64,000 nucleotides of DNA from assembly GCF_000818015.1 (NCBI RefSeq), contig NZ_CP007511.1, positions 3,757,501 to 3,821,500 of the forward strand, written 5' to 3'. The position numbers and the translations under genes were made by a program. Source of the DNA: Stutzerimonas balearica DSM 6083. Lineage in GTDB: Bacteria > Pseudomonadota > Gammaproteobacteria > Pseudomonadales > Pseudomonadaceae. Each line of letters opens with the position of its first letter. The first letter of the stretch is position 1. Below the pieces are notes generated by a model. It was not told the DNA's origin. It searched no databases and worked only from the letters and a program-made list of their open reading frames with translations. Positions 44,649 through 54,448 of the stretch are shown piece by piece.

Positions 44649-45874
<1,226 letters not shown>

Positions 45875-45875
45875 G

Positions 45876-46688
45876 TCACTCGACCTCGCCTGCTGACAAC
45901 CGCGCAACCAGGACACGCATCTGCCGGATGGCGAGTTCGTTCAACCTCTTGAGTCGCTCGGCCTGGCTCAGGCCCTGCTCGATGAAATGCGCATTCATCG
46001 ACTCCAGGTTCGCCAGGCAGACCAGCTGGTGCACGTTGGCGTGGTCGCGGATGTTGCCCTTGAGCGCCGGGTTGGCGTCCCGCCACTCACGCGCGGTGAC
46101 GCCGAACAGCGCCACGTTGAGCAGGTCCGCCTCGCTGGCGTAGACCTGGCTGGTCTGCTGTGGCATCAGGGTGTCCGGGATCAGGTTTTCCCGAATGGCA
46201 TCGGTGTGGATCAGGTAATTGACCTTGGCCAGGTTGCGCCGGATATCCCAGCCCAGCTGCTGGAACTCCTGCTCCTTTAGCCGCTGGAATTCCTTGATGA
46301 GATAGAGCTTGAACTCCACCGAGATCCAGCTGGCGAACTCGAAGGCGATGTCCTTCTGGGCGAAGGTACCACCGTAGCGCCCGGCCCGGGAGATCAGGCC
46401 GATGGCGCCGGTCTGCTCGATCCATTGCTTGGGCGTGAGGGTGAAACTGTTGAGGCCAGCCTGTTTTTTAAAGTCATCGAATTCGATGACTTTAAAATCC
46501 GGATTATTGAGTTGCTCCCAGATACCCAGAAATTCGATGGTATTCCGGTTGCGCAGCCAGTTTCCGATGATCACACCGGTTCTATCCGCATTTTTGAAGC
46601 GCGCGATGTCGGTGATGTTGATGTACTCGATGCCGTCCTTGGTGGTGGTACCGATCTGCTGGTCGAGGACCTGGAGTTTGGCTTTCAT
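45876..46688 (-). CDS. KilA-N domain protein encoded inside the cas operon
   Basis: A 270-residue protein with an N-terminal KilA-N domain (about residues 15-125: YINITDIARFKN, IIGNWLRNRNTIEFL, GRYGGTFAQKDIAFEFASWI). KilA-N is a DNA-binding domain common in phages and mobile elements. The C-terminal half is helical with no domain I recognise. It lies 23 bp after cas6e and 1 bp before cas1e, on the same strand, with GGGAAGA before its ATG, so it is co-expressed with Cascade and Cas1-2. Parts are notably AT-richer than the cas genes, suggesting later acquisition. It is not a standard I-E component. Confidence 0.9.
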   Translation of the reverse strand: MKAKLQVLDQQIGTTTKDGIEYINITDIARFKNADRTGVIIGNWLRNRNTIEFLGIWEQLNNPDFKVIEFDDFKKQAGLNSFTLTPKQWIEQTGAIGLISRAGRYGGTFAQKDIAFEFASWISVEFKLYLIKEFQRLKEQEFQQLGWDIRRNLAKVNYLIHTDAIRENLIPDTLMPQQTSQVYASEADLLNVALFGVTAREWRDANPALKGNIRDHANVHQLVCLANLESMNAHFIEQGLSQAERLKRLNELAIRQMRVLVARLSAGEVE

Positions 46689-46711: not shown

Positions 46712-47374
46712 TTAAACCCGCCTGACAAGCAACAAGCCGCAGCCGAACCCTTTGCTGTGTCCAACCCCTTCGAGCAGCGCCTTGGTCAGTCGGTCCGGAT
46801 CGATCACCTTGGCCATGCCCTGGTAATCCAGGCTGGAGTACTCGATGCCTTTGCCTTTTCGCCGAAGCCGCTGCTGGCGATAGCCGTTCTGCAGAACGCT
46901 GTCTTCGCGCACCGCCAATCCCCACTGTTCGGCACGTGCCAATAGCCAATCCTTGCCTGCCGTCTCGAGCACCTGAGCCAACTGATCACGCTGGTCAGAA
47001 GGCACGCTGCGCTTGGCATGCATCAGCACATCATGTCGCCGGGAACGTCCGTCTTCACGACGAACACTGATCGTGGGATTGGCGCGCAGGTCGAAGCGCA
47101 CCCACTCGCCACATTCCAGCAGTGGTGCATAGGGCTTGGTCTGCACTTGAAACAGGTCGGAGTTCGGAACAGGTGGGCGGGCCGAGACCACATAGAAGCT
47201 GCGCTCATCCTCAAGATGCCGAAAAACGAAATCGCGCGGCATTCCATCGCCGGGAAACAAACGCCAGATCAGGGCATGGTCGCGATAGGGTTCGCCATGG
47301 CGAGCCAGATCACGCAGCCAATCATCCTGGCGCGGCGTGGCGAGCAATCGCGCACAGGAAAAATAATGAGTCAT
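46712..47374 (-). CDS. cas6e: CRISPR pre-crRNA endoribonuclease Cas6e
   Basis: Cse3/CasE-type RNase of 220 residues that cuts each repeat 3' of its hairpin and stays bound to the crRNA. The C-terminal glycine-rich loop GVGHSKGFGCGLLLVRRV is the RAMP signature. The ATG at 47374 overlaps the cas5e stop (ATGA). Confidence 0.96.
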   Translation of the reverse strand: MTHYFSCARLLATPRQDDWLRDLARHGEPYRDHALIWRLFPGDGMPRDFVFRHLEDERSFYVVSARPPVPNSDLFQVQTKPYAPLLECGEWVRFDLRANPTISVRREDGRSRRHDVLMHAKRSVPSDQRDQLAQVLETAGKDWLLARAEQWGLAVREDSVLQNGYRQQRLRRKGKGIEYSSLDYQGMAKVIDPDRLTKALLEGVGHSKGFGCGLLLVRRV

Positions 47375-48135
47375 CCCTGCTCTCCTCCGCTCAAGGCCAC
47401 CCATTCACGCCGCGGGGCGAATTGCCAGCGGCTGCGCGACAGCGGCTGGTCGTGCCGCCAACTGTCGAAGCTGGCTTTCATTCCTGCCTCCATGCCGTCC
47501 TCCCAGTAATAGCGAATCTGCCCGGGGCGGAGATATTGACGGTCTTGCCGGGACGGCCAGACCTGCGCGGCATCCTGATCCAGCAGCCCCAGAAGCGACG
47601 GAAACTCCGCGGTATCCAGCGCCTCACGCACACTGGCGGCCGCTACCTTTCGTGGTAGCAGCGGCAATGCCAAAGGGCAGGATTTGCGCCCGAGATAGAG
47701 GGAAAAGCTCGGCTCACGCAGCGCTTGAGCGAGGGCATCGAGATCGACGGGCGCGCTCGGCAAGGCTTCCACTGCCACCAGCGCGAGGCTGTCGCAGCGG
47801 TACTCCCGAGCCGAAAGAATGGTCTCGACCTTGGCCGCGGACAGCTCCTGACGCCGCGAGCGAAAGCGGAACTTGCGCGGCGGGACGCCGACCTGGACCG
47901 TGTGATAGTCGCGCATTGGCGATCCGGTACATTCGAGCCTGATCCCGAAACGGTAACCCTCGATCAACGCGCGCTGACCGGCCTCGTCGGTACGCTCGAT
48001 GCCTAACGCCGCGCCGAGCAGGCCCAGCAAGGCGGAGCGCGACGGATGCACCGCCGAGTGCCGCGACTCGCCCACCGCAATTTCGCCCCAGCTCGCCAAC
48101 GGGCCGTACAGACGCAACAGCAGATAGTCCGCCAT
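47371..48135 (-). CDS. cas5e: Cascade subunit Cas5e
   Basis: CasD-type subunit of 254 residues that holds the crRNA 5' handle. The start MADYLLLRLYGPLASWG is the usual Cas5e N-terminus. I chose the ATG at 48135; a GTG at 48141 overlapping the cas7e stop is an alternative. Confidence 0.96.
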   Translation of the reverse strand: MADYLLLRLYGPLASWGEIAVGESRHSAVHPSRSALLGLLGAALGIERTDEAGQRALIEGYRFGIRLECTGSPMRDYHTVQVGVPPRKFRFRSRRQELSAAKVETILSAREYRCDSLALVAVEALPSAPVDLDALAQALREPSFSLYLGRKSCPLALPLLPRKVAAASVREALDTAEFPSLLGLLDQDAAQVWPSRQDRQYLRPGQIRYYWEDGMEAGMKASFDSWRHDQPLSRSRWQFAPRREWVALSGGEQG

Positions 48136-48137
48136 GT

Positions 48138-49172
48138 TCACTCCGCTGCGACGAAATCGAGGAAGTCAGCGACCGAACCCTCCCCGGCCAGCACGTTGAA
48201 CTGGTTGTGGCTGTCGGCACAGGCGCCGTAGACCTTGTCCATGTTGGCACGCACGCGCTCGAGCACCGTCACCGCTTCGCTGGCGTAATCGCCTCCGCTG
48301 ACCGGCTTGACGAACGCGAGCGAAAGCGAACGCGGCTGTTGGCTGCCTTTCTCCGCCAGGCCGAAATGGGCATAAGCCCGGCTGGCGAAGCTGTTTTGTT
48401 TGCCGTTGGGTCCAACGGTCAGGGCCGCCTGGGCGAGGGCCCGCAGCGCCTTTTGCGTCAGTGCCTCGTCGCCGCCGAGATTTCTCTTCAGGAGGTCCCG
48501 GTCGATACACAGGTATTGATAAAAGACAGCGGCGGCGAAACCGGACTCACCGATATGCGCGGCACCTGGGTCAGTGCTGTTGAGGTCGTCAACGGCGGTG
48601 AAATAGTCATCCTCGACGGCCGAGGCATGCACGCCGATGGCATGGGCCACCTGCACGGCCGCCTCGCCGTTGAACTCGGTTTTCGCGGCGAGCATGCGGC
48701 CGAACATGGCGATGTCCACTGCAGTCTGGGCATGCAGCAGCGCATCGAGCTCTTCATCGCTGGGGCCGCGCTTTTCCCGCGCCAGGGTAGCAACCAGCGC
48801 ATCGAGCGTAGCCCGCTCCTGCGGTGCAATGTGGACCAGTTGCTCGATCTCCAGCGGGTTGTCCTTCTTCACCGCCCCGTAGACCTTAGCCATCTGTCCG
48901 GCCCATTCCTTCGCCTGCTTCTCGCCGACACCTGCGGCAATCAGCGCATCGAATGCTTCCACCCCTAGCCGCTTGGTTCGCGTCCCGATATTGCCGGCCA
49001 AGGCCTGTTGAAACAGCTCTGAGGTGCGCCAGGCGCGCTTGAGGCTTTGCGAAGAAACCCGCAGCCGTTCGACGCCACCCAGACGCGCGGTTTTCGGATT
49101 GCCCAAGTCATCGCGGTTGAGGTTGGAAGGCGGATAGGAGGTGAGCAGGTGCAGTTGGACGAATCGGGTCAT
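48138..49172 (-). CDS. cas7e: Cascade backbone subunit Cas7e
   Basis: CasC/Cse4-type subunit of 344 residues; six copies form the crRNA backbone and their thumbs flip out every sixth guide base. The N-terminal MTRFVQLHLLTSYPPSNLNRD and RVSSQSLKRAWRTSELF are diagnostic. The start overlaps the cas11e stop by 4 bp. Confidence 0.97.
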   Translation of the reverse strand: MTRFVQLHLLTSYPPSNLNRDDLGNPKTARLGGVERLRVSSQSLKRAWRTSELFQQALAGNIGTRTKRLGVEAFDALIAAGVGEKQAKEWAGQMAKVYGAVKKDNPLEIEQLVHIAPQERATLDALVATLAREKRGPSDEELDALLHAQTAVDIAMFGRMLAAKTEFNGEAAVQVAHAIGVHASAVEDDYFTAVDDLNSTDPGAAHIGESGFAAAVFYQYLCIDRDLLKRNLGGDEALTQKALRALAQAALTVGPNGKQNSFASRAYAHFGLAEKGSQQPRSLSLAFVKPVSGGDYASEAVTVLERVRANMDKVYGACADSHNQFNVLAGEGSVADFLDFVAAE

Positions 49173-49807
49173 TGAGCAATCTCCTTGTTGGATTCGGTTT
49201 GATCGATGGCAGCCCGATCCCGGGCGCTCAGGTAGTAATCGCAGGCCCAGCGAAACTTGACGCCATCGCTGGCGCGAACAGTCGAGTGCCCCAGCTCGAT
49301 CTGCCAGCTGAGCAGATCGTCGGCCAGCCTCGCCACGTCCACGTCGCGATCGGCCAGCTGCACGGCCCTGCGCCAGTGGCGAAAAAGGTCGGGTACGCCA
49401 GGGCTGCGCTGCATCGCTTTGAAGCGCAACTCACTCATCTTCGGCCGATCGTGCCCGGCGCCATGACCAAGGCGCCACGCCAGGCTCTTGCCGTCGCGGG
49501 CGTCATTCTTGACCATCGCCAGCACACCAGCGATCCAAGCCAGCCGTTCATAGCTGTAAGGCTCATCGGGCAAGCAGCCGCCCTCGTCCAAGGCGATCAG
49601 ACGTTCAGCTAACAGCAGCGTGGAGGCATGCCCAAGCAATTCGTCCACATCCGCGCACCGGCGCAATTGGGCACGCTCGCCACGCCCCATCGTCCAGAGC
49701 GGACCTGGCAAGGGTGCGTCGCCTTCGCCTCGGGGTTGCAACGCGCGCCACCAGTCGCGCACCCAATGCTGCTGCGCGTCATTCAACTTCAGCTTTCTTG
49801 GCCTCAT
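49169..49807 (-). CDS. cas11e: Cascade small subunit Cas11e (Cse2)
   Basis: CasB/Cse2-type subunit of 212 residues, present as a dimer in Cascade. The RRCADVDELLGHAS region and AWRLGHGAGHDRPKMSELRFKAMQ are typical. It is somewhat longer than the common 160-190 residues. The start overlaps the cas8e stop. Confidence 0.95.
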   Translation of the reverse strand: MRPRKLKLNDAQQHWVRDWWRALQPRGEGDAPLPGPLWTMGRGERAQLRRCADVDELLGHASTLLLAERLIALDEGGCLPDEPYSYERLAWIAGVLAMVKNDARDGKSLAWRLGHGAGHDRPKMSELRFKAMQRSPGVPDLFRHWRRAVQLADRDVDVARLADDLLSWQIELGHSTVRASDGVKFRWACDYYLSARDRAAIDQTESNKEIAQ

Positions 49808-51357
49808 GCCGGCTCCCTGTCATACCGGTTGACGATTTCCCATAGCGGCTTCATGGCCTTGCCTGCATTGAGCTCCTTGGCAAGGTCGGCGCGCGCTTTC
49901 ACGATGCGCTGCATGTCCTGATCCTCGAGCGGGCCGCTGAGCACCCAATGATCGAATAGCGCCAGCACCTGTTGCCGGGTGTCTCGCAACCAGCGGCGGT
50001 ACATAGGAACGACTTTCCTGTCGCCGTCGAAGTCCAGCGCGGCAAGCTCGTTCAGCAGGTGATAGAAGGTGGGTTCGGTGGCCTGCCAGAAGCTTTGCAG
50101 CACCGCAGGCTCGCTACCGGTATCGCCTGGGCGACGAAACCAGGCAGCCTTGACTTGCTTGTGCAGCGCGCTCGCCATCGACTCGGCGGAGTCGAGCAGC
50201 CGCTTGACGCTCTTGGTGAAGTCGCGCAGCACATCTGTACCAATGGAATGCACCGGCAACATGCTGTCGTACCAGCAGAGCGCCTTCATGTTCGACATTG
50301 AGAAGCCGAAGCACCACAGGCGCACCCGCGGCATGCCAGGCCGGGCGTTAAAACGGGAAACCGCAAGCGCCGCATCCGGCTGGTGGTCTTCGTTGCCCAG
50401 CACCAACCCCAACCAATCGCGATAACCCCGTCCTGCCTGATGTCCTTTGCAGGAAATCGGCGGCTTCTCGCCCTTTGCGTCGAGGTGATAGGGCGTCAAC
50501 GGATGCATCCAATTGCCCGTGTAGTTGGTGCCCCCATGCCGGGTTCGGTAGTGATGGATCAGCCGCACATCCTTGGCAGCGCATATCGCGCAGTCGCCCT
50601 GACCTACCGTGGACTGATCTAACCGGATCCGACGCGGCATGCCCCAGTACGCCTGCAGCGGATGGACCGACTCGGGTGGCGTATCCGCCCCGCCCTTGTC
50701 ATCGCTGGTACGCGTCGGTGCCAGCCAAGGCAGCACATCGCTCAGGGATGTGATGGGCGGGTAACCGAGCGCGTCCTGCGGTATCACGTTCAGCCAGAGT
50801 TTTTGCCAGAGACTGGCCTGCTCATCCGCCGGACGCAGCAAGGTAGTCAGCGGGCCGCCACCGCGAAGCGAGGTACGCACGCCGCGACCACCGGCCGGTG
50901 CGTTCAGTTGGAGGGTCAACACGGCCTGAGCGAAGCAGTGCTCGCATAGCCCGTGATCGGCTGCCGGCTTGTTGAAGTACAGGTTGCTGGACGACCCCGC
51001 ATCGATCAGCAGCTCCAGCACCGGCAGCTGATTGGCTTCGTCCGGCAGTGCAAGATCCTGCATGAACGCCGGGCCATCGTTTCCCAGCAAAAAGGCATGG
51101 CGATAGGGTCCAAACGCGGCTTCCAGCTCATCCCGGCTTGGCGGATTTGCGTAGCGATCGCGCCATTCCTGCAGGTCTTGCGGTGCATAGGCGGTTTGCA
51201 GCAAGCCGATCAGGAACTGATACAGCGCGCCGCGGAAGTCGGGTCGTTCCGTTACTAGCTCACACCAATTCACTTCGCCCAGCTCAGCAACTGAAATGCT
51301 ATTGACCTTCTCGGAGCGGCCCGAAGCCTTCAACCAACGATTAAGCAACAAATTCAC
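49804..51357 (-). CDS. cas8e: Cascade large subunit Cas8e (Cse1)
   Basis: CasA/Cse1-type subunit of 517 residues that recognises the PAM and recruits Cas3. It begins MNLLLNRWLKASGRSEKVN and contains GRGVRTSLRGGGPLTTL and the four-cysteine-like CEHC / CAIC elements. The start is 3 bp after the stop of the small membrane protein gene, implying coupling. Confidence 0.96.
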   Translation of the reverse strand: MNLLLNRWLKASGRSEKVNSISVAELGEVNWCELVTERPDFRGALYQFLIGLLQTAYAPQDLQEWRDRYANPPSRDELEAAFGPYRHAFLLGNDGPAFMQDLALPDEANQLPVLELLIDAGSSSNLYFNKPAADHGLCEHCFAQAVLTLQLNAPAGGRGVRTSLRGGGPLTTLLRPADEQASLWQKLWLNVIPQDALGYPPITSLSDVLPWLAPTRTSDDKGGADTPPESVHPLQAYWGMPRRIRLDQSTVGQGDCAICAAKDVRLIHHYRTRHGGTNYTGNWMHPLTPYHLDAKGEKPPISCKGHQAGRGYRDWLGLVLGNEDHQPDAALAVSRFNARPGMPRVRLWCFGFSMSNMKALCWYDSMLPVHSIGTDVLRDFTKSVKRLLDSAESMASALHKQVKAAWFRRPGDTGSEPAVLQSFWQATEPTFYHLLNELAALDFDGDRKVVPMYRRWLRDTRQQVLALFDHWVLSGPLEDQDMQRIVKARADLAKELNAGKAMKPLWEIVNRYDREPA

Positions 51358-51360
51358 GAC

Positions 51361-51600
51361 TCACTCCTTGTCGACCTGAATGAAGATCCGAACACGCTTG
51401 ACACGAGACAGAATTAGCAGCAGTAGAAACCCCATCAACCCAGCCCACCAGTCACCCCATAGTTCTCTACCGCCTGCGCAATCAGTGCCATAGCCGCACT
51501 CATACCGACCTCCCCAAGGTTTGACAGGAGGCAGTAAAGCAGCCAAAAGTAAAAACCACAAGGCTTGCTGTTTTTTCTTAAACCATCTCTTGCACTCCAA
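51361..51600 (-). CDS. Small two-helix membrane protein, first gene of the cas8e operon
   Basis: A 79-residue hypothetical protein. A basic start (KRWFKKKQQ) is followed by a hydrophobic helix (about 13-26), a polar Gly/Trp/Cys-containing loop, and a second helix (about 53-65) ending in RVKRVR, the pattern of an inserted two-pass membrane protein. The start appears to be TTG at 51600, with GAGG 5 bp upstream; no ATG fits. It ends 3 bp before cas8e. I do not recognise a family. Part of its 5' end is the target of the crRNA-like element described below, so the start could also lie further in. Confidence 0.6.
   Translation of the reverse strand: MECKRWFKKKQQALWFLLLAALLPPVKPWGGRYECGYGTDCAGGRELWGDWWAGLMGFLLLLILSRVKRVRIFIQVDKE
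51560..51585 (+). promoter_or_regulatory. Putative Cascade regulatory target: AAG PAM plus partial protospacer
   Basis: AAG at 51560-51562 is followed by 51563-51585, which matches the pseudo-spacer beginning at 51657 at 18 of 23 positions (mismatches at 6, 9, 12, 13 and 18). On the minus strand the same bases include a possible -10 TTTAAG (51577-51582) for the cas8e operon. Cascade bound here would block transcription into the membrane protein gene and cas8e. Confidence 0.75.
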
Positions 51601-51627
51601 AACTGCCTCGCAGCCCGCTAAGATGCG

Positions 51628-51706
51628 TTGCCGCCTTCCCTCGAAGGAATGAACCGGCTTGATGGTTGCTCTTCAACCAGTTCCCCGCCAATGCGGGGCG
51701 TCGGGC
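51628..51706 (+). ncRNA. Mini-CRISPR encoding a crRNA-like regulatory RNA (CreA/CreR-like candidate)
   Basis: Pseudo-repeat 1 (51628-51656) has a diverged stem but ends in ATGAACCG, the exact 8-nt handle of the arrays' crRNAs. The pseudo-spacer starts at 51657 (GCTTGATGGTTG...) and is only about 21-23 nt. Pseudo-repeat 2 (51678-51706) keeps GTTCCCCGC-CAAT-GCGGGG, a perfect 6-bp Cas6e-type stem with a four-base loop, but has lost the 3' handle, which is not needed for one crRNA. It reads opposite to the cas genes. A weak -10 TAAGAT (51619-51624) is the only promoter hint. Alternative: four consecutive hairpins acting as a cas3 terminator or attenuator. Confidence 0.75.
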
Positions 51707-51715
51707 AAGGACGCC

Positions 51716-54448
51716 CTACCAACTCAGCCCGCTTTCCCGGTCATAGCGCATCTCGACCAACCGGCCGCGCGCATCCAAAACCTTGGCTATCAACGCCCCG
51801 CCCTCCGCAGCCAGCGGCAAGACGAATGCCGGCTCCTCGAGCAACCTGTAGCCCTTTCGCAGACGCTCCACCGCGCCACCGAAGCGCTGCTGCCAATCCG
51901 GAGCCAGCGCACGCGCCTGCTCCGCCCGGACGTTTACGGCCGAGCGCTCCCAGCAGTACAACCCGGAGTCGCACAGCGGCTGCAACTCTCCGTCGCGCCA
52001 GAGGGCGAGATAAAGCGTCTGGGTTTCATCGCCAAGCCGGGTTGGCACTTGATTGTCCTCATACCAGCGCGCACTGCTGTCGATGCAGTACCCCATGTCC
52101 AGCTTCAAGGCGTTGAAGTGCGCCTGGCTTTGCATCGCCATGCCTTCGCCAATCTGATCCCGACTGGACTTTTGCAGCGCCTCGGGCACGGACTGTTCAT
52201 CCACGCCATACACCGCCTCGACCAACTCCCGCACAGCACCGGCCTGCCCCGCTTCGCCCGGCGTGACGAGGTGGCCGGCCGCCAACAACGCTCGTGCGCC
52301 GAGCCATAGCTTTCCGGCGTCCGGATAGACGAAGCAGCCCTTGGGAAACATCGAGGCGTACCAATCGGCCTTCGGTTCATCGACGGGTTCAGGTGTCAGC
52401 AGATACAGCATCGGCGCGGCACGTTGCTCGACACCGTCGGCTGCCGGATCGCCATTAGCCTGCCGTGCGTGCCGCTGCAAACGCCCGGCACGTTGAATCA
52501 CGAGATCAATGGGGGCGAGATCGGACACCATCAGATCGACGTCGAAATCGAGACTCTGCTCAAGCACTTGGGTGCCGACCAGCACTCTGCCTTTGCGCTG
52601 CGCAGCCGACGAGTGCTTGCCGAAACGGGCCAGCACGGCATTTTCGATATCCAGGCGATCGCCCATCGCGTAGCGGCTGTGGAACAGCATCACGTCCGAA
52701 GCCTGCATCCGTTCGGTCAGCAGGGCGTGCGCACGGCGCGCATCGCTCACGGTGTTGCGAATCCAGGCAATGCAGCGGCCCGCCCGCGCTTGCTCAGCGA
52801 TGAGAGCCAGTACCGATTCCTCGTCATGCAATGCACTGACCTGAACTTTCCGACGCACCTGGGGCCGCGTTGCGCAGGCGTAGCTGTGCAACTTCTGGCC
52901 GGCCTGCACGGCCAATGGATAACGCGCGTCGCCCAGATCTTCTCCATCGCCGCATCCCAGCCCTGAACGATAGGCTTGCAACAACTGGTTCCGAACATCG
53001 AGCGGCAGCGTCGCCGAGAGCAGGATCACGCTGCCACACTGACGGGCATGAGCAATCAACAGATTTTTTAGTAGCGACAACATGTACGGGTCGTAGGCGT
53101 GCACCTCGTCGACCAGCAAGACCTTGCCCGCCAGGCCCAGGAGCCGCAGCGATTGGTGCCGAGCGGGCAAGACGGCCAGCAGCGCCTGATCGAGCGTGCC
53201 GACACCCACATCGGCCAGCAAAGCCTTCTTGCGGTTGTCGGCAAGCCATGCATTGCATTGCGCGCTGGCCGTTCCTTCATCTGACTTATAGCGGCCGTCG
53301 TCCGGTTGGTCGGAAGCATGCAACACGCTTTGCCGATAGCCTTCGACCAGTTGCCGGGCCCCATGGGACAGAACGAGCGATGGAAGCGCGCCTGGAGCAT
53401 AAAGGCGCCGGTAGATACTGCCGACCCGCTGGTACATCTGGTTGGCGGTGGCCATGCTCGGCAGCGCGAAATACAGGCCGTGCGCCAAACCGTTCTGCAT
53501 GAGGCGCTGACTGAGGATCAGTGCAGCCTCGGTCTTTCCCGCGCCCGTCACGTCTTCCAACAGGAACAGCTGAGGCCCGCCTTCTAGCTCGACCGTAGCG
53601 GCGTACTGCTGCAATGGGGTCGGATCGGTGAGGTAATCGAACAGTTGCTGCGGATGGGGCCAGTGGCGAATCGCGTGCCACTCCAGCCCAGCGGAGGTTA
53701 CAGCCTCCCGCGCCTGTTGCTGGGCATGCAGCCAGTAGTCAGTCAGGACCGTCGGGTCGCTTCGGTAGGGGAAGTGCACCTGATTGGAGCCCAACCAATC
53801 CGCGAGGACCGCCAAGCCTGCCAGCCGCCAGGCGTGCCGCTTCAACACCACCAGTTGTTTACGTTCGGGGGGCGGGATTTCTCTCGGGCACAGCCAGCTC
53901 GCGAGCTCGTCAACGAAGGCGTGTGCAGCGCGCCGGTCCGAGCGCAGAAAGTGTTCGCTCGCGTCGAACGCGATCAGGCCACCTGACTCATGCTCCTGCG
54001 GAGGCTTGCCGTGATGACCGACCACTGCACGTAGCCAAACACCCCAGAACTCATGAGAGGCATCTGGCAAGAACGCAGTCTCTGATTCGCTCGCAAAATC
54101 CTCGCACCAGAGCATCCAGCCCAAGGTGTCGTGTCGCTTCGTATAGGGCTTGTCACGGTCTGCCGGAACTAAATCGGGGGAAAGGTCGGTAACTAGCCCT
54201 TGGAAGGATCGGGCGAACTTACCCAGGTCATGCAGTGCCAGGAACAGCACGAACAGCGATTCGACCTGGCTCAGCGGCCAGCCCAGCTCACGAGCCAAAG
54301 GCTGCAGGGAAAAATGCGGCAGCTTAATCAGAGTCTGGCCGCAGGCCGCCACATCAAGGGAATGAAAAGGCAAAAGGTGAAAGCGCTCGCCACTCTCACC
54401 CTGCGCGGATGCCTTTCCCCAATAAGCAAAGAAAGATGGGACCGTCAC
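51716..54448 (-). CDS. cas3: CRISPR-associated helicase-nuclease Cas3
   Basis: Effector nuclease of 910 residues recruited by Cascade. The N-terminal HD nuclease shows H29 and the HD pair at 73-74 (ALHDLGKFARS). The superfamily 2 helicase has Walker A VTGAGKTEAAL (about 297), DEVHAYDPY, SATLP and the QRAGRLQRH motif. It starts at GTG 54448 after AGGGAG. It is separated from the cas8e operon by 115 bp and probably has its own promoter in the gap before array 2. Confidence 0.97.
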   Translation of the reverse strand: MTVPSFFAYWGKASAQGESGERFHLLPFHSLDVAACGQTLIKLPHFSLQPLARELGWPLSQVESLFVLFLALHDLGKFARSFQGLVTDLSPDLVPADRDKPYTKRHDTLGWMLWCEDFASESETAFLPDASHEFWGVWLRAVVGHHGKPPQEHESGGLIAFDASEHFLRSDRRAAHAFVDELASWLCPREIPPPERKQLVVLKRHAWRLAGLAVLADWLGSNQVHFPYRSDPTVLTDYWLHAQQQAREAVTSAGLEWHAIRHWPHPQQLFDYLTDPTPLQQYAATVELEGGPQLFLLEDVTGAGKTEAALILSQRLMQNGLAHGLYFALPSMATANQMYQRVGSIYRRLYAPGALPSLVLSHGARQLVEGYRQSVLHASDQPDDGRYKSDEGTASAQCNAWLADNRKKALLADVGVGTLDQALLAVLPARHQSLRLLGLAGKVLLVDEVHAYDPYMLSLLKNLLIAHARQCGSVILLSATLPLDVRNQLLQAYRSGLGCGDGEDLGDARYPLAVQAGQKLHSYACATRPQVRRKVQVSALHDEESVLALIAEQARAGRCIAWIRNTVSDARRAHALLTERMQASDVMLFHSRYAMGDRLDIENAVLARFGKHSSAAQRKGRVLVGTQVLEQSLDFDVDLMVSDLAPIDLVIQRAGRLQRHARQANGDPAADGVEQRAAPMLYLLTPEPVDEPKADWYASMFPKGCFVYPDAGKLWLGARALLAAGHLVTPGEAGQAGAVRELVEAVYGVDEQSVPEALQKSSRDQIGEGMAMQSQAHFNALKLDMGYCIDSSARWYEDNQVPTRLGDETQTLYLALWRDGELQPLCDSGLYCWERSAVNVRAEQARALAPDWQQRFGGAVERLRKGYRLLEEPAFVLPLAAEGGALIAKVLDARGRLVEMRYDRESGLSW

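Follow-up and report, generated by a model that had tools for sequence, protein, structure and literature searches.

A CreR-like one-spacer mini-CRISPR that likely parks Cascade before the cas8e promoter region of a type I-E system in Stutzerimonas balearica

Stand-alone repeat pairs forming crRNA-like mini-arrays near cas8, with guides partly matching cas8 promoters, were reportedly described by Shmakov and colleagues in 2023, and single-guide autorepression of Cas9 is said to have been found by Workman and colleagues in 2021. The closest described relative of the locus considered here is CreR, a cas-regulating RNA (Liu et al. 2023, Cell Host Microbe 31:1481, as presented in the accessible parts of the reviews PMC13131331, PMC12737573 and PMC12948488). 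In the same portions of these reviews, CreRs are listed for types I-B, I-E and V-A (PMC13131331), are generally uncoupled from toxin genes (PMC12737573) and exert a repression that yields to competing crRNAs and anti-CRISPRs (PMC12737573, section 3.2). CreA of the CreTA modules consists of two divergent pseudo-repeats, yielding a 5' handle of 8 nt and a 3' handle of 22 nt, according to the available sections of PMC8501985 and PMC9458426.

The window, i.e. the whole 64,000-nt stretch of the S. balearica DSM 6083 genome that was analysed, contains a full type I-E cas set with every Cascade gene and cas3 (Table 1). Its 358-bp cas3-cas8e gap holds, on the plus strand and opposite to all cas genes, two CRISPR-repeat-like elements around one guide. 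On the basis of sequence comparison we consider it highly probable (about 0.88) that this unit is a one-spacer mini-CRISPR of the CreR kind, whose guide likely parks Cascade before the predicted cas8e promoter and thereby lowers the amount of Cascade. As CreR is portrayed in the accessible review parts, the two have in common a mini-CRISPR in the cas locus and a guide partly complementary to a cas promoter, and would have in common autorepression via Cascade. Set beside CreR, the unit has a very degenerate first repeat, and transcription from the predicted promoter would extend to tiny leader ORFs and a KilA-N gene; set beside the array guides, the guide measures 21 instead of 32 nt, about two Cas7 steps less. 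Since CreRs are already in print for type I-E (PMC13131331, in its accessible part), the locus counts as a further case of a known kind: the first-pass annotation, which had proposed an undescribed I-E member, was right in that the locus itself is new, but the kind had been reported. Between the two precedents which that annotation had named, the autoregulator is preferable to CreA, the antitoxin, since the guide aims at the promoter region of the cas operon itself and no separate toxin unit was seen. The stand-alone repeat pair and the partial match to a cas8 promoter also recall the mini-arrays reportedly found near cas8, and the use of an RNA to turn the effector onto its own cas promoter recalls the autorepression said to exist for Cas9, although the latter reportedly concerns type II, Cas9 and an unrelated RNA architecture. 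With CreA, as described in the available sections of PMC8501985 and PMC9458426, the unit shares a first repeat more diverged than the second and a partial pairing to a promoter, whereas its guide aims at the promoter region of the cas8e operon instead of a creT toxin RNA gene standing by itself; what follows the predicted promoter is cas8e, with tiny ORFs in the leader and no separate transcription unit seen. CrePA likewise associates a KilA-N protein with a cas locus and a crRNA-like guide (PMC12737573, section 3.3), but here the KilA-N gene lies inside the cas operon, between cas6e and cas1, without a guide of its own, and the window holds no other unit that would place it behind its own guide-repressed promoter.

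Table 1. Features of the cas3-cas8e gap and of the adjoining cas genes (positions counted from the first base of the window)
Feature	Position	Strand	Details and basis
cas1 and cas2	44649-45916	-	PF01867, PF09707
KilA-N domain gene	45876-46688	-	PF04383, E 7e-19; PADLOC PDC-S22, E 1.1e-129
cse2, cas7e, cas5e, cas6e	46712-49807	-	PF09485, PF09344, PF09704, PF08798
cas8e (cse1)	49804-51357	-	PF09481, E 1.5e-101; first gene of the Cascade operon, proposed target of repression
Leader ORF 2	51361-51435	-	24 aa, MGFLLLLILSRVKRVRIFIQVDKE; its start and the ORF 1 stop overlap (TGATG); putative coding
Leader ORF 1	51435-51503	-	22 aa, MSAAMALIAQAVENYGVTGGLG; Shine-Dalgarno-like stretch 5/6; putative coding
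Predicted -10 TTTACT, cas8e operon promoter	51533-51538	-	17-bp spacing
Predicted -35 TTGTGG, cas8e operon promoter	51556-51561	-	overlaps the PAM; weak score, supported by the register in relatives
AAG PAM of the target	51560-51562	+	guide scan
Target (protospacer)	51563-51585	+	18/23 identical to the guide; mismatches at 6, 9, 12, 13, 18
Predicted -10 TAAGAT, putative CreR gene	51619-51624	+	RNA would then start at ~51631; inferred
First pseudo-repeat	51634-51656	+	diverged 5-bp hairpin, one A, 8-nt handle
First-repeat hairpin	51634-51647	+	CCTTC 51634-51638, loop CCTC, GAAGG 51643-51647; fold prediction
5' handle ATGAACCG	51649-51656	+	same as the final 8 bases of the array repeat
Guide (pseudo-spacer)	51657-51677	+	21 nt; identity to the target extends to 51679
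Second pseudo-repeat	51678-51698	+	Cas6e-type stem CCCCGC-CAAT-GCGGGG; no 3' handle follows
cas3 with HD nuclease domain	51716-54448	-	PF18019, PF22590

Direct reading of the letters bore out the layout given in the first-pass annotation. The diverged first repeat ends in a handle, ATGAACCG, that it shares exactly with the array repeat of the window (GCGTTCCCCGCAGGCGCGGGGATGAACCG), and the pseudo-spacer starts right behind it. The second repeat-like unit reads GTTCCCCGC-CAAT-GCGGGG (51680-51698); its stem arms are the same as those of the window's arrays, the loop alone differing (CAAT vs AGGC), and the bases behind it, CGTCGGGC, form no handle. The predicted mature RNA begins with AUGAACCG at 51649 and would comprise 8 + 21 + 21 = 50 nt, compared with 8 + 32 + 21 in an array crRNA. 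Diverged repeats and a guide that matches the host's own intergenic DNA set the unit apart from a canonical array. When both strands of the whole 64 kb were scanned for a handle matching in at least 7 of 8 positions and followed 14-45 nt on by a TTCC hairpin, 71 array units, two degenerate end units of the main array (40464 and 40525, minus strand) and the unit at 51634-51698 were returned, and no others. No Rfam family reached its gathering score on the unit. The sole gathering-level Rfam match in the window is a 5' ureB sRNA (RF02514, 24691-24974, minus strand, E 2.6e-32).

In many relatives a -10-like hexamer stands at a similar distance before the first pseudo-repeat (judged by eye, uncounted); a good -35 was not seen for the putative CreR gene, and a consensus promoter scan of the window returned 0 promoters. 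The guide is predicted to be capable of folding on itself, which counts against the CreR reading, and cutting by Cas6e at the first pseudo-repeat is uncertain, because its badly degenerate stem has 5 bp and is shifted by one base from the usual register. Directly behind the cas3 stop (51716) lie the second pseudo-repeat and, by eye, a GGGCGTC/GACGCCC stem, which could also be taken to mean that the hairpins mainly terminate the cas3 transcript and that the guide match is incidental. This explanation is very unlikely: a T-run is missing, a terminator scan found none, and the handle, the PAM, the guide match and the recurrence described below would be left unexplained.

The strongest evidence for the unit is a target site that went unnoticed in the first-pass annotation. 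The guide scan of the window yielded a single outstanding site, 94 bp from the guide and with a perfect AAG PAM. According to the available parts of PMC5965380, type I-E Cascade keeps positions 6, 12, 18, 24 and 30 flipped out and unread; since the mismatches at 6, 12 and 18 fall on bases that Cascade skips, 18 of 20 readable positions match, against 14 of 20 at the second-best site in the 64 kb. The chance that 6, 12 and 18 all fall among five random mismatches of 23 is 0.0056. The 4.38-Mb genome was searched with A[A/T]G and the first 17 guide positions, N being placed where guide and target differ, and the zero mismatches of the target itself are thus there by construction; elsewhere the best sites have 2 mismatches and none has fewer, and at up to 3 mismatches there are 45 sites vs 13 for a backward control. 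At blastn level, the same intergenic DNA is absent from all other 55 genomes of the genus.

Several other origins of the match were considered. Plain duplication of promoter DNA is unlikely, because the mismatches concentrate at positions 6, 12 and 18, and a chance origin is ruled out by the guide-swap, shuffle and held-out controls given below. A search for handle plus seed gave 15 matches in viral contigs as candidates for phage-borne guide mimics; 13 of them have no TTCC[CT] motif within 30 nt behind the match, the remaining two (L134 and L135) do not look like repeat stems by eye, and all 15 were treated as chance.

A search of related genomes, proposed in the first-pass annotation as a check on conservation, revealed that the design recurs between cas3 and cas8e. 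The best 80 of 98 loci encoding a related Cas8e were combined with 30 of the 34 Cas8e matches among 298 genomes of the family, and the 110 loci, in which the window replaces its own duplicate L091, were scanned by a target-blind rule; 46 of them contain a unit. For 34 of the 46 units an AAG site scoring at least 12 of 17 readable positions lies within the upstream 1.4 kb, whereas this score is reached in 33 of 2,070 guide-swap controls, homologous pairs included. All 34 scored units are antisense to cas8e (the duplicate genome L089 having been dropped). The relatives have unrelated guides that fit a local site, so the locus shows the same-place design with differing, locally fitting guides that characterises CreR. 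Guide lengths are bimodal, with 19-22 nt in 10 of 34 and 31-33 nt in 24 of 34, about two Cas7 steps apart. With its handle and Cas6e stem intact, one fitting site, and recurrence antisense to cas8e, the unit supports the first-pass reading of a crRNA-like regulatory RNA.

The pattern of matching follows the bases that Cascade reads. The 35 units scoring at least 11 reduce to 25 non-redundant ones, in which positions 1-5, 7-11 and 13-14 each match in 23-25 of 25 (290/300 cells) and positions 6, 12 and 18 in 4, 5 and 4 of 25 (13/75 cells); positions 15-17 match in 14-18 of 25, and matching fades past 18. Giving equal weight to positions 1-17 led to the same site in 25 of 25 cases. This structural signature, in which every sixth base is ignored, points to Cascade as the likely reader of the RNA. 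A held-out set of 26 further Cas8e loci from 293 genomes of the order, treated by the same rules, contained a unit in 14, ten with new guides; six of these ten score at least 12, compared with 1 of 90 swaps. Among the seven held-out units scoring at least 11, guide and target agree in 34 of 35 cells at positions 1-5, in 2/7 at position 6 and in 1/7 at position 12, while position 18 matches in 3/7, no lower than its neighbours. Guide/target pairs show 224 compensated, 6 guide-only and 7 target-only cells at readable positions 1-14, and 1, 35 and 13, respectively, at positions 6 and 12, but this co-variation carries no weight, because the targets were found by matching and the result is partly built in. 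The second-repeat stem matches the array of its own locus in 21 of 29 cases, with 14.8 expected on swapping, which is suggestive only.

Counting the units scoring at least 11 and five lower ones (L004, L005, L006, L008 and L048), a unit is found in 35 of 39 loci where cas3 and cas8e are at least 250 bp apart, in 2 of 24 with 100-249 bp, in 0 of 14 with shorter gaps and in 0 of 3 loci without cas3 upstream. Of the 46 units, 12 remain below a score of 12, among them those of L044, L045 and L107, which look like false picks. In a second and more varied group (L004, L006, L008, L009, L048 and L086) the unit lies no more than about 150 bp from cas8e, and a seed match of about 10 nt is preceded by AAG, ATG or AAC. 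In L005 (gamma proteobacterium HdN1) a CreR-like unit stands at -183 with an internally duplicated guide, for which a target was not found upstream of cas8e.

These results also bear on the possibility that the unit is a functionless, decaying array remnant or a repeat-like stretch that arose by chance. Both of its repeats are diverged, and the main array has degenerate end repeats too. Such a remnant, however, would not retain both handle and stem, nor a single AAG site beside a promoter, and would neither skip positions 6, 12 and 18 nor recur with unrelated guides in dozens of loci; we regard this explanation as scarcely credible.

The CreR reading further involves the promoter that the guide would occlude. 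The target site abuts the predicted cas8e -35. The consensus score of the window's cas8e promoter is 6.2 against a shuffle mean of 6.3, and since this is no better than shuffled DNA, the assignment rests on the relatives; the TTTACT hexamer is common to the window, L002 and L011. For 17 of 23 non-redundant minus-oriented targets, the -35 of the best sigma-70-like promoter near the site on the cas8e strand lies at -3 to 0 or +8 to +11 from the PAM (shuffle control: mean 1.2, maximum 6 in 300), the two bins having been chosen after the first promoter results were known, and in 6 of 23 it lies outside both. The -35 starts at -2 or -1 in nine loci, the window included, and at +8 to +10 in eight. 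In the held-out set it stands at -2 in 4 of 7 and outside in 3 of 7, with none at +8 to +10. The two registers are about 11 bp apart, which is about one helical turn. Such a spacing would suit a requirement that Cascade and RNA polymerase meet on the same side of the helix.

According to the proposed mechanism, a plus-strand RNA from about 51631 would be cut by Cas6e to the 51649-51698 product, on which a Cascade shortened because of the 21-nt guide (instead of 32 nt) would assemble. This complex would recognise the AAG and the target on the plus strand, where the match itself is observed, and, once bound, would keep RNA polymerase away from the -35 and from the upstream contact region, since the site abuts the predicted -35 in a register that recurs in relatives. 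By analogy with the CreRs of the reviews, array crRNAs or anti-CRISPRs occupying Cascade would relieve the block and cas expression would rise. Cutting by Cas3 would presumably not follow, the guide being too short here and the longer guides of relatives too mismatched in the PAM-far part, to judge by published type I-E and I-B experiments. In E. coli, as reported in the accessible parts of PMC5904413, an AAG and five seed pairs are enough for Cascade binding, affinity peaks with up to 18 PAM-proximal pairs, and mismatches at 19-32 keep binding while abolishing interference and priming; in type I-B, guides of 21-24 nt repress strongly without interference or priming (PMC10989794, accessible part). 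Long-guide relatives mostly cease matching after about 17 nt, and both this and the 21-nt guide of the window fit binding without cutting. The short guide alone may not exclude self-cutting, because the accessible part of PMC7296934 describes type I-E as less strict than I-F1 about the R-loop length at which cleavage is initiated. Natural guides may thus offer two possible ways to bind without cutting, either through a guide of only 19-22 nt or through one of full length whose far end is mismatched. With guide, site, register and relevant bases named, type I-E self-control becomes testable across many genera.

Leader micropeptides hint that the repressed set exceeds the cas genes. In the window, the two leader ORFs and the KilA-N gene lie in the operon behind the predicted promoter at the guide's target. 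Leader ORF 2 has a hydrophobic stretch and a basic tail (KRVRIFIQVDKE), like, by eye, the leader peptides of L011 (KRVRFSIRIDRD) and L002 (KRFRLTISIDRD); a protein homologue search with the L011 leader peptide gave no candidate. Of 35 unit loci, 14 have a short ORF with a Shine-Dalgarno sequence and a TM-like stretch on the way from the target to cas8e, compared with 0.6 expected from shuffles, one of the 14 (L046) possibly being a chance ORF. With the same filter, such an ORF occurs in 0 of 75 loci without a scored unit, a count limited to the Shine-Dalgarno filter and to within 300 nt of cas8e, because L016 has a micropeptide and no unit was found there; in L018, L019, L020 and L023 the micropeptide is present but outside the filter. 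A single-TM-like micropeptide of 36-44 aa with the pattern ..NxxSPxPxAlIaLALv.. is seen between the CreR target (where found) and cas8e in L016, L017, L018, L019, L020, L022, L023, L024, L027, L032, L035, L041 and L079. An alignment of eight copies shows as shared features a stretch at the N-terminus, a (Ser/Ala)-Pro turn and a single hydrophobic helix. Seven copies of the Methylomonas/Methylobacter type, with dN 0.01-0.26 and dS 0.18-3.7 or saturated, indicate by these rates that the micropeptide is under purifying selection. Six micropeptides gave best E values of 0.057 and 0.039 against PHROGs and NCBIfam, taken as noise, two had no convincing match in PADLOC, and the homologues of the L079 copy form one cluster of 3 sequences. 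Among the matches listed in searches of the open-access literature, which were aimed at small toxins only in part, the leader micropeptides were not seen, and they may nevertheless be in print; together with the KilA-N gene in the window's cas operon, they may be the newer findings.

By tblastn, 13 of 80 loci gave a KilA-N match; it lies between cas6e and cas1 in 12, the matches in L016 and L019 being partial, and elsewhere in L004. KilA-N (PADLOC candidate PDC-S22) stands between cas6e and cas1 in several genera (L002, L003, L005, L011, L016, L019, L042, L047, L050, L053-L055). The start of the window's copy at 46688 is a chosen codon, and the open frame extends further up.

These genes are what could make the guide an antitoxin of the CreA type, repressing a toxic product of the same promoter, i.e. 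the leader peptides or KilA-N, so that loss of Cascade would harm the cell. Two tiny ORFs do follow the target promoter region in the window, a purifying-selected single-TM micropeptide is present in many relatives, and CreP is typically a KilA-N protein (PMC12737573, section 3.3), like the product encoded here between cas6e and cas1. However, the likely start of KilA-N is 23 bp behind cas6e with no unit of its own beside it, and KilA-N loci carry a CreR with target just somewhat oftener than others (7/12 vs 25/68, raw counts), an excess too weak to make KilA-N the specific client of the guide; L003, L047 and L050 even have KilA-N without a unit. In L037, L043 and L067 the target leaves no space for a leader ORF before cas8e, and the leader ORFs of the window are short and in two frames. 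An antitoxin role is rather unlikely. It is intriguing, if equally speculative, to suppose that one guide restrains an alarm cassette of membrane peptide, Cascade and KilA-N, whose release by anti-CRISPRs would halt the cell; were this doubtful idea true, type I-E autorepression and abortive infection would be one switch, and the CreR-linked single-TM micropeptides of relatives would be an undescribed family.

Further small genes were noted before cas8e. The leader of L002 has two frames related by -1 that meet, by eye, at a T TTT TTG slippery-like heptamer, and a programmed frameshift is possible there. In L007 (Pseudomonas jinjuensis), where a CreR was not found, a Phd/PIN-like toxin-antitoxin pair, recognised by eye, lies between cas3 and cas8e, within about 840 bp upstream of the latter. 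Similar basic peptides of 43-45 aa (..KYGLKAWPI..) stand just upstream of cas8e in L042, L053, L054 and L055, which are other CreR loci. Likewise by eye, a hicB-hicA-like toxin-antitoxin pair is seen upstream of cas8e in L020, L022, L025, L026, L027 and L032, situated between the micropeptide or cas3 and cas8e, and L024 shows its first gene.
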